Of a stretch of 38,454 bases of DNA, positions 29,009 through 33,696 are shown one piece after another; the first letter of the stretch is position 1; the number at the start of each line of letters is the position of its first letter. The DNA comes from Paludibacteraceae bacterium (GTDB lineage Bacteria; Bacteroidota; Bacteroidia; Bacteroidales; Paludibacteraceae). The position numbers and the translations under genes were made by a program. Under the pieces are notes generated by a model. It was not told where the DNA came from, ran no database searches, and worked only from the letters and a program-made list of their open reading frames with translations. Where the stretch lies: assembly GCA_017959385.1 (NCBI GenBank), contig JAGDAS010000038.1, forward strand, positions 1 through 38,454, written 5' to 3'.

Positions 29009-29042
29009 GAAAAAAGGGAGCGTCGCTCCCTTTTTTCTTATT
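29004..29042. terminator. Bidirectional terminator: 39-nt perfect palindrome containing both stop codons
   Basis: The sequence from 29004 to 29042 is its own reverse complement around the central T at 29023 (arms of 19 nt; core GAAAAAAGGGAGCG and CGCTCCCTTTTTTC). In either direction it gives a GC-rich stem followed by a T6 run. The TAA of pepD (29006-29008) and the TAA of tyrA (29040-29038) lie within the arms. Confidence 0.9.
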
Positions 29043-29811
29043 CGATATTCTTGCGCAGTTGCTTGAGGTAAGCCTTAAGCGCCGCCGTATCCTTATGGTC
29101 GATGATTTCAATCAGCAATTTGAGTTGCTCCCGGATCTTGGCCACCTGCGCCGAGGTGAACGGATTGAAGAGCACTTCGGTAATCAGGTAGTCATCTTCC
29201 GAAAGGAAACCGCGGGCAATGTCCATGTGCTTCTTGAAAGTCGTACCCGGCGCATCCTGGTGCTTCATCACGGCGGCGAACGTCATGGTGGAGACAAAAG
29301 GAATGGACAGCGAGTAGGCAATGGTCTCGTCGTGCTGCAGGAAAGTATATTCAAAGATATTGAGGTGCAGCGAGTTGTACAGATCCTTGAAGAACAGTTT
29401 GCCCATGTGGTCCGACTCGGCGATGATGATGGCGTTCTGCGTGCTCAGGTTGTCAAGGTTGGCAAAGGTGGGACCGAACATCGGGTGCGTGGAGACAAAA
29501 CGGTGTCCGCACTTGGCATAGAATTCCGGCAAACCGGTCTTCACAGAGGCGATATCGGACAGGAGGCAGTCTGCGGGCAGAAAGGGAAGCACTTCCGTAA
29601 ATGCGTCGAAAGTATGGTTGAGGCTCACGCAGTTGATCAGCATCTCGGGGGCGAAATCCCGCACCTCGTCGAGCGTGGTCATACGACGCGTGTTGAACAC
29701 GAACCGCAGCCGTTCCGGCTGTTTGTCGAACAACGCCACCTCGTGCTTCATACACAGCACATCGGTCATAAAGGTGCCCATTTTGCCGGCACCCATAATC
29801 AGGATTCTCAT
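29038..29811 (-). CDS. tyrA: Prephenate dehydrogenase
   Basis: The 257-residue protein starts with the NAD-binding loop MRILIMGAGKMG (GAGKMG, residues 7-12) and has SDIASVKTGL and STHPMFGPTFANL, the conserved TyrA segments with the substrate-binding His. The C-terminal half is the helical prephenate dehydrogenase domain. It oxidises and decarboxylates prephenate to 4-hydroxyphenylpyruvate, the precursor of tyrosine. It is the last gene of the aromatic operon (3 nt after the DAHP synthase/mutase gene) and lacks a fused mutase or ACT domain, which fits the mutase being fused to DAHP synthase. Confidence 0.93.
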   Translation of the reverse strand: MRILIMGAGKMGTFMTDVLCMKHEVALFDKQPERLRFVFNTRRMTTLDEVRDFAPEMLINCVSLNHTFDAFTEVLPFLPADCLLSDIASVKTGLPEFYAKCGHRFVSTHPMFGPTFANLDNLSTQNAIIIAESDHMGKLFFKDLYNSLHLNIFEYTFLQHDETIAYSLSIPFVSTMTFAAVMKHQDAPGTTFKKHMDIARGFLSEDDYLITEVLFNPFTSAQVAKIREQLKLLIEIIDHKDTAALKAYLKQLRKNIE

Positions 29812-29814
29812 CGC

Positions 29815-30876
29815 TTACTTGTTTACAATCTCCAGTTGTTGGCGTACCGATTCGGCATGCACCGCCTCCAAAAACGTCTTGACAAATTCACCCGACATAC
29901 CGAGCGATTCGCCCAGAATGATCCGCTTCTGCATGATTTCATCGTAACGGGCGGCCTGCAGTACCTGAATGTTGTGCTCCTTCTTGTACAGACCGATCTC
30001 GCGGCTCACACGCATACGCTTGGAGAGCATTTCGAGCAGGTCGTTGTCAATGGAGTCGATCTGCTTGCGAAGTTCGGTCAGATTCTCCGTGCTCTGCTTG
30101 GTCTCACGGATCACGAGCATATTGAGAATGTACTCCAGAATCTCGGGGGTCACCTGTTGGGCGGCGTCGCTCCAGGCCTTGTCCGGGTTGCAGTGCGACT
30201 CGACAATCAGGCCGTCGAAGCCCAGGTCCATGGCCTGCTGGCACAAGGGGGCGATCAGCTCGCGCTTGCCACCGATGTGGCTGGGGTCGCAGATGATGGG
30301 CAGATCGGGATAGCGGCGGCGCAATTCGATGGGCAGGTTCCATTGCGGCTGGTTGCGGTAGATTTTTTTATCGTAGGTGCTGAATCCGCGGTGAATGGCC
30401 CCCAGGCGTTTGATACCGGCGTTGTTGAGCCGCTCCATCGCTCCGATCCACAACTCGATATCGGGGTTGACCGGATTTTTGACCAAAACCGGAACATCCA
30501 CACCCTTCAACGCATCGGCGATTTCCTGCATGGCGAAAGGGTTGGCCGAAGTGCGGGCACCGATCCACAACAGGTCAATGCCGTGTTTCAACGCCTCGCG
30601 GACATGTTTCTCGGTGGCAACCTCGGTGGCCACATACATACCGGTTTCAGCCTTCACCTTTTCCAGCCAGGGCAGTCCCTCCACTCCGACGCCCTCAAAG
30701 CCGCCGGGTTTGGTACGGGGCTTCCAGATGCCGGCGCGGAAAATTTTGACGTTGCGTTCCGCCAGCTGCCGGGCGGTTTCCATTACTTGCTCTTCGGTCT
30801 CGGCACTGCAGGGACCGGCAATAACCACGGGGCGCTTGGGATCCACGCCGGGCAGTAAGAATGATTCGATTTCCAT
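29815..30876 (-). CDS. Bifunctional DAHP synthase / type II chorismate mutase
   Basis: Residues 1 to about 255 form a DAHP synthase of the AroA(Q)/KDO8P-like type (VVIAGPCSAE, FRAGIWKPRTKPGGFEG, DLLWIGARTSANPF, CDPSHIGGKRELIAPLCQQAMDLGFDGLIVESH). Residues about 268-353 form a helical AroQ-type chorismate mutase (LTELRKQIDSIDNDLLEMLSKRMRVSREIGLYKKEHNIQVLQ, ending in VHAESVRQQLEIVNK). The protein condenses PEP and erythrose-4-phosphate and also converts chorismate to prephenate, the first and branch steps to Phe and Tyr. In this fused class the mutase domain also gives feedback control. It is co-transcribed between the aminotransferase and tyrA genes and lies under the leader-peptide attenuator. 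Confidence 0.95.
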   Translation of the reverse strand: MEIESFLLPGVDPKRPVVIAGPCSAETEEQVMETARQLAERNVKIFRAGIWKPRTKPGGFEGVGVEGLPWLEKVKAETGMYVATEVATEKHVREALKHGIDLLWIGARTSANPFAMQEIADALKGVDVPVLVKNPVNPDIELWIGAMERLNNAGIKRLGAIHRGFSTYDKKIYRNQPQWNLPIELRRRYPDLPIICDPSHIGGKRELIAPLCQQAMDLGFDGLIVESHCNPDKAWSDAAQQVTPEILEYILNMLVIRETKQSTENLTELRKQIDSIDNDLLEMLSKRMRVSREIGLYKKEHNIQVLQAARYDEIMQKRIILGESLGMSGEFVKTFLEAVHAESVRQQLEIVNK

Positions 30877-30895: not shown

Positions 30896-32059
30896 TTATA
30901 ATTCAAGTTGTCGGATACGGGTAAGCGCCTCGCTGAGTTTCTCCCGGGTGGCGCAAAGGGATATGCGGATGTAACGTGCGCCGTTGCTGCCGAAAATGAA
31001 GCCGGGCACCAGAAAGACCTTGGCCTCGTGCAGCACTTTTTCGGTCAGTTGTTCAACGTCGGCATACCGGTCGGGAATGCGCCCCCAGAGGAACATACCG
31101 GTCTGCGCCGGATCGAAGGTGCAACCCAGCGCCTGCATGATCTCCTCCGCCACGGCCCTGCGTTCGCCGTAAAGGCGGATATTCATCGCCTCGTGCCACG
31201 CCTCATCGTTGTGCAGCGCACGGGCGGCCGCCAACTGCACCGCACGGAACATGCCGGAATCAACATTGCTCTTCACCTTGAGCACCCACTGCACGAACTG
31301 TGCGTTGGAAGCCAGCATGGCGACACGCCAACCGGGCATGTTGTGACTCTTGCTCATGGAATTGAATTCGATGCAACAGTCTTTGGCGCCGGGCACCGAC
31401 AGGATGCTCAGCGGCTTGCGGTTGAGAATGAAGCTGTACGGGTTGTCGTGCACAATGACGATTTGGTGTCTTTGGGCGAAGGCCACCGCCTTTTCGAACA
31501 GTTCCATGCCGGCGGGAGCACCGGTCGGCATATTGGGGTAATTCATCCACATCAACCGCACCTTGGAAAGGTCCATACGCTCCAGCGCCTCAAAATCGGG
31601 CTGCCACTGCCGGTCCTCCAGCAGGTCGTAAGGGACCACCTCCGCCCCGAGCAGCCGGCTGAGCGACGTATAGGTCGGATAACCGGGATTGGGCACCAGG
31701 ACCTGTTCGCCGGGATTGACAAACGCCAGCGTAACATGCAGAATACCCTCTTTGGAGCCGATCAGCGGTTGGATTTCGGTTTTCGGATCCAACTCCACCC
31801 CATACCACCTGCGGTAAAAATCGGCAAAGCCCTGACGCAGTTCGGGGATACCCACATAGGGCTGGTATCCGTGCGCATCGGGGCGTGCCGCCGCCTCACA
31901 GAGCATTTCGACGGTTTCGGGCGAAGGGGGCATATCGGGACTGCCGATGCCCAGACTGATCACATTTGCGCCTGCGGCGTTCATGGCAGCCACTTCTTTC
32001 AGCTTGCGCGAAAAATAGTATTCGCTGACGGTTTCCAAACGTTTGGCCGGTTGTATCAT
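30896..32059 (-). CDS. Pyridoxal-phosphate aminotransferase (class I/II) of the aromatic operon
   Basis: The 387-residue protein has the fold-type I blocks NVISLGIGSPDMPPSP, VPNPGYPTYTSLSRLLGAEVVPYDL, WMNYPNMPTGAP and the PLP-binding Lys237 in SMSKSHNMPGWR, followed by the Arg in IRISLCATREKL that binds the substrate carboxylate. In aromatic operons of Bacteroidales it is taken to convert phenylpyruvate and 4-hydroxyphenylpyruvate to Phe and Tyr, though aspartate or LL-diaminopimelate-type activity cannot be excluded. It is the first structural gene after the Phe/Tyr leader; a prephenate dehydratase gene, often found next to it in related genomes, is absent here. The ATG is 11 nt after the attenuator's U run. 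Confidence 0.9.
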   Translation of the reverse strand: MIQPAKRLETVSEYYFSRKLKEVAAMNAAGANVISLGIGSPDMPPSPETVEMLCEAAARPDAHGYQPYVGIPELRQGFADFYRRWYGVELDPKTEIQPLIGSKEGILHVTLAFVNPGEQVLVPNPGYPTYTSLSRLLGAEVVPYDLLEDRQWQPDFEALERMDLSKVRLMWMNYPNMPTGAPAGMELFEKAVAFAQRHQIVIVHDNPYSFILNRKPLSILSVPGAKDCCIEFNSMSKSHNMPGWRVAMLASNAQFVQWVLKVKSNVDSGMFRAVQLAAARALHNDEAWHEAMNIRLYGERRAVAEEIMQALGCTFDPAQTGMFLWGRIPDRYADVEQLTEKVLHEAKVFLVPGFIFGSNGARYIRISLCATREKLSEALTRIRQLEL

Positions 32060-32070
32060 AGATCTTTCAT

Positions 32071-32097
32071 AAAAAAAGCCCGTTCATTTGAACGGGC
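32071..32097 (-). terminator. Attenuator terminator of the aromatic operon
   Basis: On the leftward RNA, GCCCGTTCA (32097-32089) and TGAACGGGC (32086-32078) form a perfect 9-bp stem with a 2-nt loop, directly followed by seven T (complement of 32077-32071). The segment CCCGTTC (32096-32090) can instead pair with GAACGGG (32137-32131) upstream, which would prevent the terminator. Confidence 0.9.
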
Positions 32098-32106
32098 CTC
32101 ATGTTT

Positions 32107-32155
32107 CTATTTGATTGCTTGCACTACCATCCCGTTCTACTTGGATCCCAAATAG
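32107..32155 (-). promoter_or_regulatory. Alternative base-pairing segments of the Phe/Tyr attenuator
   Basis: CTATTTG (32155-32149, in codons 12-14 of the leader) can pair with CAAATAG (32113-32107). Between them lies GAACGGG (32137-32131), the antiterminator arm, which begins on the last base of the leader stop codon. A ribosome stalled on the Phe/Tyr codons would cover the first segment and free GAACGGG to pair with 32096-32090; a ribosome at the stop would mask it. Confidence 0.7.
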
Positions 32156-32190
32156 AAAAAGTAAAAGTAATAGGCAAACATTTCTTTCAT
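32137..32190 (-). CDS. Phe/Tyr-rich leader peptide of the aromatic amino acid operon
   Basis: A 17-codon frame, MKEMFAYYFYFFYLGSK, begins 8 nt after a strong -7 box and ends in TAG at 32139-32137. Residues 5-13 contain four Phe and four Tyr, far above chance. It sits upstream of a terminator and the Phe/Tyr biosynthesis genes, exactly the place and composition of an attenuation leader peptide such as PheL. It has no expected function other than to report charging of tRNA-Phe and tRNA-Tyr through ribosome stalling. The role is inferred; reading frame, composition and RNA pairings are seen directly. Confidence 0.88.
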   Translation of the reverse strand: MKEMFAYYFYFFYLGSK

Positions 32191-32198
32191 AACGGGGA

Positions 32199-32230
32199 CA
32201 AAGATAGCGCATTTATGGAATACAGCCAAA
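32199..32230 (-). promoter_or_regulatory. Promoter of the aromatic amino acid operon
   Basis: TTTG (32230-32227), a 20-nt spacer and TATCTTTG (32206-32199) match the Bacteroidota consensus in both boxes. Transcription would begin about 4-6 nt downstream, leaving only a few nucleotides before the leader ATG at 32190. Confidence 0.85.
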
Positions 32231-32274: not shown

Positions 32275-33696
32275 TTGACGATTCAGAACCCATATAGACC
32301 ATCGGCCGACATCCTGTTGGCTGGGATCATCGGCTGCATCGGAGCCGTCATCTGGGGCTTTCAGCTGCACGGAACACTGGTCTCATCGCCCGTGTACTGC
32401 GATTCCGGATACTACCTGGCCATTGCGCAACAGCTGGCGGAAGGCCACTCGCTTTACAGCGAAATCCGATGTGCCTACCCGCCCCTATGGCTCTACCTGA
32501 TGGCGGGCCTGCTCAAAATCCTTCCACCAACGGGCTATACCGGTTGGCTGGTGGTACAGGCGCTGGTCAATCTGGCAACGGCAAGTCTGATCGGGTTGCT
32601 TTGCCATGCTTTTACTTCCAAACGCTGGGCAGCCGCCCTGGCCGGATGGCTTTGCGCCTGCAGCACCTTCCAATTCGGCGGCGACCAGGTTCTTCTGGAA
32701 ATCCCCAGCCTGGCGTTCGGACTGCTTTCGGCCTACCTCATCCAGCGGTCCAACGGCAAGTGGCACCGCATCCTGCTGGCAGGGGTCTGCGCCGCCGTCT
32801 CGTTCGGCATCAAACAATACGGTGCCGGATTCATCCTGCTCAACCTGGCACTATTAATGGCGAACGACCCTAAGAATTGGCGCCAGCCTCTGATTTACAG
32901 CGCCGGTGTGCTGGTACCGCTGCTGGCTGTGTTCGCGATCAACCCCCTGGTGGTCAGTATCTTCCAATCCGGTTACGGGACTTCCGACATCGCCCGGCAG
33001 ATTTACCGGGATCTCGGGCCGCTGCGGCATATTCCGGAGGCCTGCAGGCAGTTGTTCCGATACTTTCTCCCCGGCCTGTTGGCACTTTTGTACCCCGGTT
33101 TCTACCTGCGGGGGAAAAAGCAGGCCCTTCCGCTGGCATGGTGCCTGCTGGGTATTATCGGTTTTCTGGGACAATTCTATTTCAACAACGGCGACCACTA
33201 CTACCTGTACCTGTTGGGAATCGGCGCCGTGGCCATCGGCTGCCTGACGGCCTACTGCATCCGGGAACCCTGGTACATCGGTCTGACCGTACTGCTGCTT
33301 ACCGCCTACACCTGCCGATGCCAATACGACCGATACCACAACTGGTGGTGGTACCGGGATGGCGATCGGGCGCGGGAGCGCGAACTCACCGGAGTCGTAA
33401 AGCGTATCACACCGGAGGAATCCACCCTCTATGTATTCAATGCGGAGAACATCGGCCAGTACTACCTATGCCAGCGCCGGCCTCCCGTTATAGACGGATG
33501 CCTGTCCTACAGTTTCGGACCACTCGCTTTGAACAACGACCTGGTGGCGCAACGCATCCGTCAGACAGATTATCTACTAAAAAGAAAAGACCTTGAATGG
33601 GAATTCAAGGTCTGCGATTCCATCCGGCTTTTATTAAGCCGCTGCGACACACTCTATGCAGACGACAAAAACGTACTGCTGAAGGCGGATTTCTAA
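32275..33696 (+). CDS. GT-C fold integral membrane glycosyltransferase (PMT/ArnT-like)
   Basis: The 473-residue protein has about ten hydrophobic helices. After the first helix it shows the GT-C motif in the first periplasmic loop (CDSGYYLAIAQQLAEGHSLYSEI, with the catalytic-type Asp43), then CAYPPLWLYLMAGLL as in PMT_2/GT39 and ArnT-like enzymes, and a hydrophilic C-terminal domain (about 350-473). Such enzymes move a sugar from a polyprenyl-phosphate carrier to a periplasmic acceptor. The frame has no ATG near the start; TTG at 32275 is used because an in-frame stop lies at 32269-32271 and the first Met is after the catalytic loop. Acceptor and sugar are unknown. It lies next to a surface-polysaccharide cluster and converges on gmhA with a 4-nt overlap. 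Confidence 0.85.
   Translation: MTIQNPYRPSADILLAGIIGCIGAVIWGFQLHGTLVSSPVYCDSGYYLAIAQQLAEGHSLYSEIRCAYPPLWLYLMAGLLKILPPTGYTGWLVVQALVNLATASLIGLLCHAFTSKRWAAALAGWLCACSTFQFGGDQVLLEIPSLAFGLLSAYLIQRSNGKWHRILLAGVCAAVSFGIKQYGAGFILLNLALLMANDPKNWRQPLIYSAGVLVPLLAVFAINPLVVSIFQSGYGTSDIARQIYRDLGPLRHIPEACRQLFRYFLPGLLALLYPGFYLRGKKQALPLAWCLLGIIGFLGQFYFNNGDHYYLYLLGIGAVAIGCLTAYCIREPWYIGLTVLLLTAYTCRCQYDRYHNWWWYRDGDRARERELTGVVKRITPEESTLYVFNAENIGQYYLCQRRPPVIDGCLSYSFGPLALNNDLVAQRIRQTDYLLKRKDLEWEFKVCDSIRLLLSRCDTLYADDKNVLLKADF

Follow-up and report, generated by a model that had tools for sequence, protein, structure and literature searches.

The 38,454-nt stretch of Paludibacteraceae DNA analysed here (the window) carries, on the minus strand and 12 nt upstream of an operon (32059-29038) that comprises aminotransferase, DAHP synthase/chorismate mutase and tyrA genes, an element that is very probably a ribosome-mediated transcription attenuator sensing charged tRNA-Phe and tRNA-Tyr. 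This reading is based on the anatomy of the element, predicted folds of its successive states, conservation, covariation and spacing, from which we also infer the response to charging. The element combines several features of its functional class: a run of end-product codons in a short ORF, a terminator between this ORF and the first gene, a mutually exclusive antiterminator supported by covariation, and control codons placed so that segment 2 can be freed or covered. Its parts and the genes that follow are listed below.

32227-32230, minus strand: -33-like promoter element TTTG, by direct reading, 20 nt 5' of the -7 box
32199-32206, minus strand: -7 promoter box TATCTTTG (Bacteroidota consensus TAnnTTTG), 8 nt before the leader ATG
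32137-32190, minus strand: leader ORF MKEMFAYYFYFFYLGSK followed by TAG, 17 codons, ATG at 32190 and TAG at 32139-32137; leaders rich in phenylalanine and tyrosine (F/Y) are conserved in relatives
32181-32179, minus strand: second in-frame AUG of the leader ORF, 9 nt after the first
32152-32178, minus strand: control codons F-A-Y-Y-F-Y-F-F-Y, Phe or Tyr at 8/9 (codons 5-13), by direct reading
32135-32158, minus strand: 1:2 protector hairpin, UUCUAUUUGG with CCAAGUAGAA, from the minimum-energy fold, sharing bases with the last control codons and with the 5' end of segment 2
32131-32137, minus strand: segment 2, GAACGGG, 5' arm of the antiterminator; its first G is the last base of the stop codon
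32090-32096, minus strand: segment 3, CCCGTTC, common to antiterminator (2:3) and terminator (3:4)
32078-32097, minus strand: terminator stem-loop GCCCGTTC-AAAT-GAACGGGC, containing segment 4, GAACGGG (32085-32079)
32071-32077, minus strand: terminator U run, 7 U, by direct reading
30896-32059, minus strand: aminotransferase class I/II (Pfam PF00155, E 3.5e-58), the first controlled gene, ATG at 32059
29815-30876, minus strand: DAHP synthase fused to chorismate mutase (Pfam PF00793 and PF01817)
29038-29811, minus strand: prephenate dehydrogenase, tyrA (Pfam PF02153, E 9.7e-9)

A complete attenuator of this kind, with a promoter, a 17-codon F/Y ORF, three pairing segments and seven U, had been proposed in an initial annotation, and its coordinates prove to be right, as do the eight F/Y codons among nine consecutive ones and the contact between the stop codon and segment 2. 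The U run of the terminator likewise stands, but the perfect 9-bp hairpin does not: the core consists of 8 Watson-Crick pairs closed by an AAAU loop, and a ninth pair (A-U) would require a 2-nt loop. Outwards, the hairpin can be extended by G-U and A-U pairs with the U run. Among the short ORFs (8-45 codons) of the 38 kb window, the leader alone reaches 6 or more F/Y in 9 codons. The heptamer GAACGGG alone is not rare (8 found in the window against 8.5 expected), so that the evidence lies in the arrangement of the segments and its conservation.

The proposed mechanism starts with transcription that would begin a few bases before the 17-codon ORF. When Phe- or Tyr-tRNA is scarce, the ribosome translating the leader is expected to stall in the F/Y run with its leading edge halted before segment 2, which would then pair with segment 3 as this emerges. 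Segment 4 would be left unpaired and the polymerase would go on to transcribe the aminotransferase gene, the DAHP synthase/chorismate mutase gene and tyrA. When both tRNAs are ample, the ribosome would reach the stop codon and cover segment 2, and the 3:4 hairpin would form and end transcription at the U run. In the absence of leader translation, the 1:2 hairpin would mask the beginning of segment 2, and once more the terminator would be expected to form. The efficiency of termination and the response to Phe and Tyr are both read from this architecture and should be taken as predictions.

Folding calculations are consistent with this scheme. The leader folds at -41 kcal/mol, compared with -23.1 +/- 3.3 for shuffled sequences (z = -5.4; 0/200 as good). 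For the separate states, only RNA outside the ribosome was folded, with the leading edge assumed to be 14 nt away from the start of the A-site codon. With a stall at any of the eight F/Y codons and segment 4 not yet made, the 2:3 antiterminator is predicted (-11 to -16 kcal/mol); a ribosome at the stop codon covers segment 2 and leaves the terminator as the only predicted structure (-17.8 kcal/mol). In the untranslated RNA, the 1:2 hairpin is predicted to take the first bases of segment 2, together with the terminator (-41.0 kcal/mol). None of 200 controls gives as good a 1:2 hairpin as the window, and 24 of 107 leaders of the family have one at p <= 0.05, where about 5 are expected. The predicted protector is therefore best regarded as part of the anatomy of the window, where it is well supported, and not as a defining property of the family, across which it is weakly indicated.

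The promoter is of the Bacteroidota type, and 76 of 84 Bacteroidales leaders have a TAnnTTTG box in the 60 nt that precede their AUG, compared with 2.3% of random 60-mers. The gap between the -7 box and the first AUG is 8 nt in the window against a median of 27 nt in relatives; one relative (L013, genome G015), which has two in-frame AUGs, likewise shows 8 nt before the first of them. Given the usual spacing of Bacteroides promoters, the first AUG would lie on an unusually short 5' UTR of about 5 nt, and this near-leaderless arrangement is mostly peculiar to the lineage of the window. It had been supposed that ribosomes must load on this AUG. The 8-nt gap is real, but the obligation is not, since the downstream in-frame AUG offers another start and makes near-leaderless loading possible without requiring it. 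This second AUG at 32181, which is preceded by A-rich sequence, may be the real start. The intergenic region is common to the attenuator promoter and a divergent membrane mannosyltransferase-like gene (32275-33696, plus strand), whose PMT_2 match falls just below the Pfam cut-off.

Comparison with relatives, which the initial annotation had suggested as a check able to refute it, supports the proposal. Aminotransferase orthologues were collected in 60 related genomes as well as in named ones, and nearly all of those with enough upstream sequence are preceded by a short F/Y-rich ORF, which amounts to 84 distinct Bacteroidales leaders preceding this operon. Examples are MKALFHTYFYFFFYFYFSNKVKREVVYVR in Bacteroides sp. 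Marseille-P3684 (L034) and MNKLNAYIYVYFYFARNCEAGSCV in Prevotella aff. ruminicola (L083). The leader mostly lies about 1 kb upstream of the aminotransferase gene, because prephenate dehydratase (pheA) is the first gene of the operon in these relatives. Among orthologues with at least 1.4 kb of upstream sequence, L023, L043 and L098 are the sole cases in which no F/Y leader was found; the leader of L004 lies outside its flank and is visible in L035. To cover the phylum, 118 genomes were drawn evenly and pheA was located in 102 of them. An F/Y leader precedes pheA in 20 of 24 Bacteroidia genomes outside Bacteroidales; in other classes a comparable ORF occurs in 1 of 40 genomes examined, and there it has no significant antiterminator. 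The element looks class-wide in Bacteroidia and absent or rare outside this class.

The codon content of these leaders bears on a first alternative, in which the ORF senses general translation speed or ribosome-inhibiting drugs and the F/Y codons merely slow the ribosome over a U-rich stretch. Phenylalanine is indeed mostly encoded by TTT (415 against 113 TTC) and the run is very U-rich; for tyrosine, TAC is used 276 times and TAT 194 times. However, codons for both amino acids persist in leaders that otherwise vary, and the controlled genes belong to the Phe/Tyr pathway (pheA, tyrA and DAHP synthase genes) in varied arrangements. Moreover, in two related genomes (G109 and G016), His, Trp and Ile/Leu/Val leader ORFs followed by terminators are found near hisG, trpE and ilvD (L179, L183, L185, L186), each matching the product of its pathway. 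This alternative is accordingly held to be very improbable.

A sequence-only MAFFT alignment of 36 leaders shows 93.6% of cells paired in the antiterminator and 94.9% in the terminator, with 5 and 7 pairs, respectively, that have undergone double changes. None of 500 shuffles matches the observed pairing or covariation score. When the register is slid by one base, pairing falls to 49-57%, with the slid registers of the antiterminator at or below 50%. On the aminotransferase tree, the partner base followed the change in 2/2, 3/3 and about 4/4 supported independent contrasts at three positions, and segment 3 nearly always tracked segment 2, each position alone offering too few contrasts for significance. 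Beyond Bacteroidales, complementarity is retained even though most bases of the segments have often changed, as in GAGACTTT/AAAGTCTC and GCCGGGACT/AGTCCCGGC. Antiterminator and terminator thus both covary in relatives, and the mutually exclusive pairings of CCCGTTC anticipated from the window alone are supported by covariation of both helices as well as by the state folds.

Segment 2 was also searched for automatically, as the complement of the 5' arm of the terminator, blind to position and scored against shuffles. It is recovered at p <= 0.05 in 73 of 80 Bacteroidales leaders (72 of 80 with a different shuffle) and in 19 of 23 leaders outside this order, and a leader's own scores (median 22) exceed those of between-clade swaps (median 13.5, 95% at 19.5). 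Measured from the last F/Y codon, its start lies at a median of 11 nt in Bacteroidales (interquartile range 11-12 nt), at a median of 8 nt outside this order and at 14 nt in the window. This spacing approximates the reach of a ribosome, so that a stall in the F/Y run would leave segment 2 free. Two layouts of the stop codon are observed. In the window and many relatives it abuts segment 2, which a terminating ribosome would cover; in Bacteroides and Prevotella the ORF crosses segment 2 and ends some 20-35 nt past its start. Both fit the same mechanism, translation itself masking segment 2 in the second layout.

These observations also weigh against a hairpin that acts as a constitutive terminator, giving a fixed low read-through or releasing a small RNA, with an incidental ORF upstream. 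A strong terminator is present, and small RNAs derived from 5' UTRs have been reported in Bacteroides (PMC7366714), but such an explanation would leave unaccounted for the F/Y ORF in more than 100 leaders, the covariation of segments 2 and 3, and the near-fixed distance between the last F/Y codon and segment 2. It is given about half the credence of a general sensor of translation speed, which is itself slight. Control of the terminator by a T-box or a metabolite riboswitch, frequent as T-boxes are in amino-acid operons of Firmicutes, is the least credible possibility of all: neither a T-box nor a riboswitch is matched at a cut-off as permissive as E <= 10, the space of about 120 nt between promoter and terminator is nearly half coding, and conservation is concentrated in the peptide and the pairing segments.

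An attenuator sensing Phe and Tyr charging remains the preferred reading, and it has no counterpart among Rfam families, none of which covers this leader. The best match, Phe_leader (RF01859), reaches 30.4 bits (E 0.0037) against a gathering threshold of 55 bits; neither the T-box leader nor Bacteroid-trp (RF01692) models match at E <= 10, and ten relatives gave no gathering-level match to any Rfam leader family. Bacteroid-trp RNA is listed as a probable cis-regulatory motif of Bacteroidetes whose name points to trp genes (PMC2864571). The closest classical system is the enterobacterial pheL/pheA attenuator, with which the element shares a Phe-rich leader peptide, the alternation between a 2:3 antiterminator and a 3:4 terminator, and genes of the pheA type. 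It differs in its Tyr codons, as prominent as those for Phe, in its Bacteroidota-type promoter and in its operon, and an origin independent of the enterobacterial system is most likely. Attenuators of the trpL, hisL, leuL and ilvL type have the same layout and working principle, with different amino acids and in different phyla.

A 2010 paper that added a Firmicutes case stated that demonstrated leader-peptide systems had until then been confined to Proteobacteria and Actinobacteria (PMC2965389). For Bacteroidota, short ORFs reminiscent of leader peptides were mentioned in passing for Bacteroides thetaiotaomicron (PMC7366714), and a 2021 study of Flavobacterium psychrophilum reported strong clues that amino-acid operons are preceded by leader-peptide attenuators, as well as a structured 5' element at pheA that is conserved in Flavobacteriaceae (PMC9723704). 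That element resembles the present one in preceding the same gene and in having no Rfam hit; in the main text of that study, however, neither a leader sequence nor a mechanism is given for pheA, and there is no extension to Bacteroidales. The view that attenuation is little described in this phylum is therefore only partly right, since signs of it at Flavobacterium pheA had already been published. A search of openly available journal papers yielded nothing on a Bacteroidota Phe/Tyr leader beyond these two studies, and no description of the family in Bacteroidales. The mechanism is of a classical, known kind, whereas little of the family or of its spread through the class seems to have been described.

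Several features are specific to particular lineages. The usual operon of relatives starts with pheA and that of the window does not. The sole pheA of the host genome is located on another contig (L112, G000:C14:14980-18516), divergent from a rho-like gene, and no F/Y leader was found there; in the lineage of the window, pheA appears to have been freed from the attenuator. In genome G015 (L013), as in the window, the leader directly precedes the aminotransferase gene. Five genomes of the same genus (G001-G004, G010), in assemblies that are 78-95% complete, have neither an aminotransferase orthologue nor a leader match, which suggests that the aromatic operon has been lost in part of the genus. 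At hisG, ilvD and thrA of the host genome no His, Ile/Leu/Val or Thr leaders were found, and trpE, sought for a Trp leader, was not found in this genome.

A covariance model of the leader matches 38 of 61 genomes (the host and 60 relatives) at E <= 0.01, with a single match in the host genome, the window itself. Where strong additional matches were followed up, most proved to precede pheA or tyrA-DAHP synthase-aroB (G054); a weak match in G026 precedes a DAHP synthase gene. In G054 (L212, G054:C6) the F/Y leader MNNTFGYYAFYYYFFYNN precedes tyrA-DAHP synthase-aroB, and a further model match precedes pheA. Other weak matches, for example G014:C10 and G025:C36, have no nearby F/Y ORF and were taken as chance. 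Tandem F/Y leaders occur in several lineages (L148, L154, L210, L215), G020 and G042 carry two, and in L148 each leader of the tandem is followed by its own terminator; these arrangements suggest double attenuators. A second copy of the leader was also observed about 10 kb from the first (L209, G009:C37:36309), and the stretch retrieved there contains no clear aromatic gene.

The balance tips slightly towards leader-peptide attenuation being a class-wide, ancestral form of amino-acid control in Bacteroidia, with one Phe/Tyr family across orders together with His, Trp and Ile/Leu/Val leaders, all operating through tight coupling of transcription and translation in a phylum believed not to rely on Shine-Dalgarno loading and, in the lineage of the window, even from a nearly leaderless start. 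Ribosome-mediated attenuation requires a ribosome close behind the polymerase. A class-wide family of such switches would therefore constitute a natural assay of transcription-translation coupling in Bacteroidota, which are major gut bacteria with unusual translation initiation. The family, which is missing from Rfam, is provided here with an alignment and a covariance model. Its recognition gives a function to tiny unannotated ORFs and assigns a likely Phe/Tyr control to the synthesis of aromatic amino acids in Bacteroides and Prevotella.
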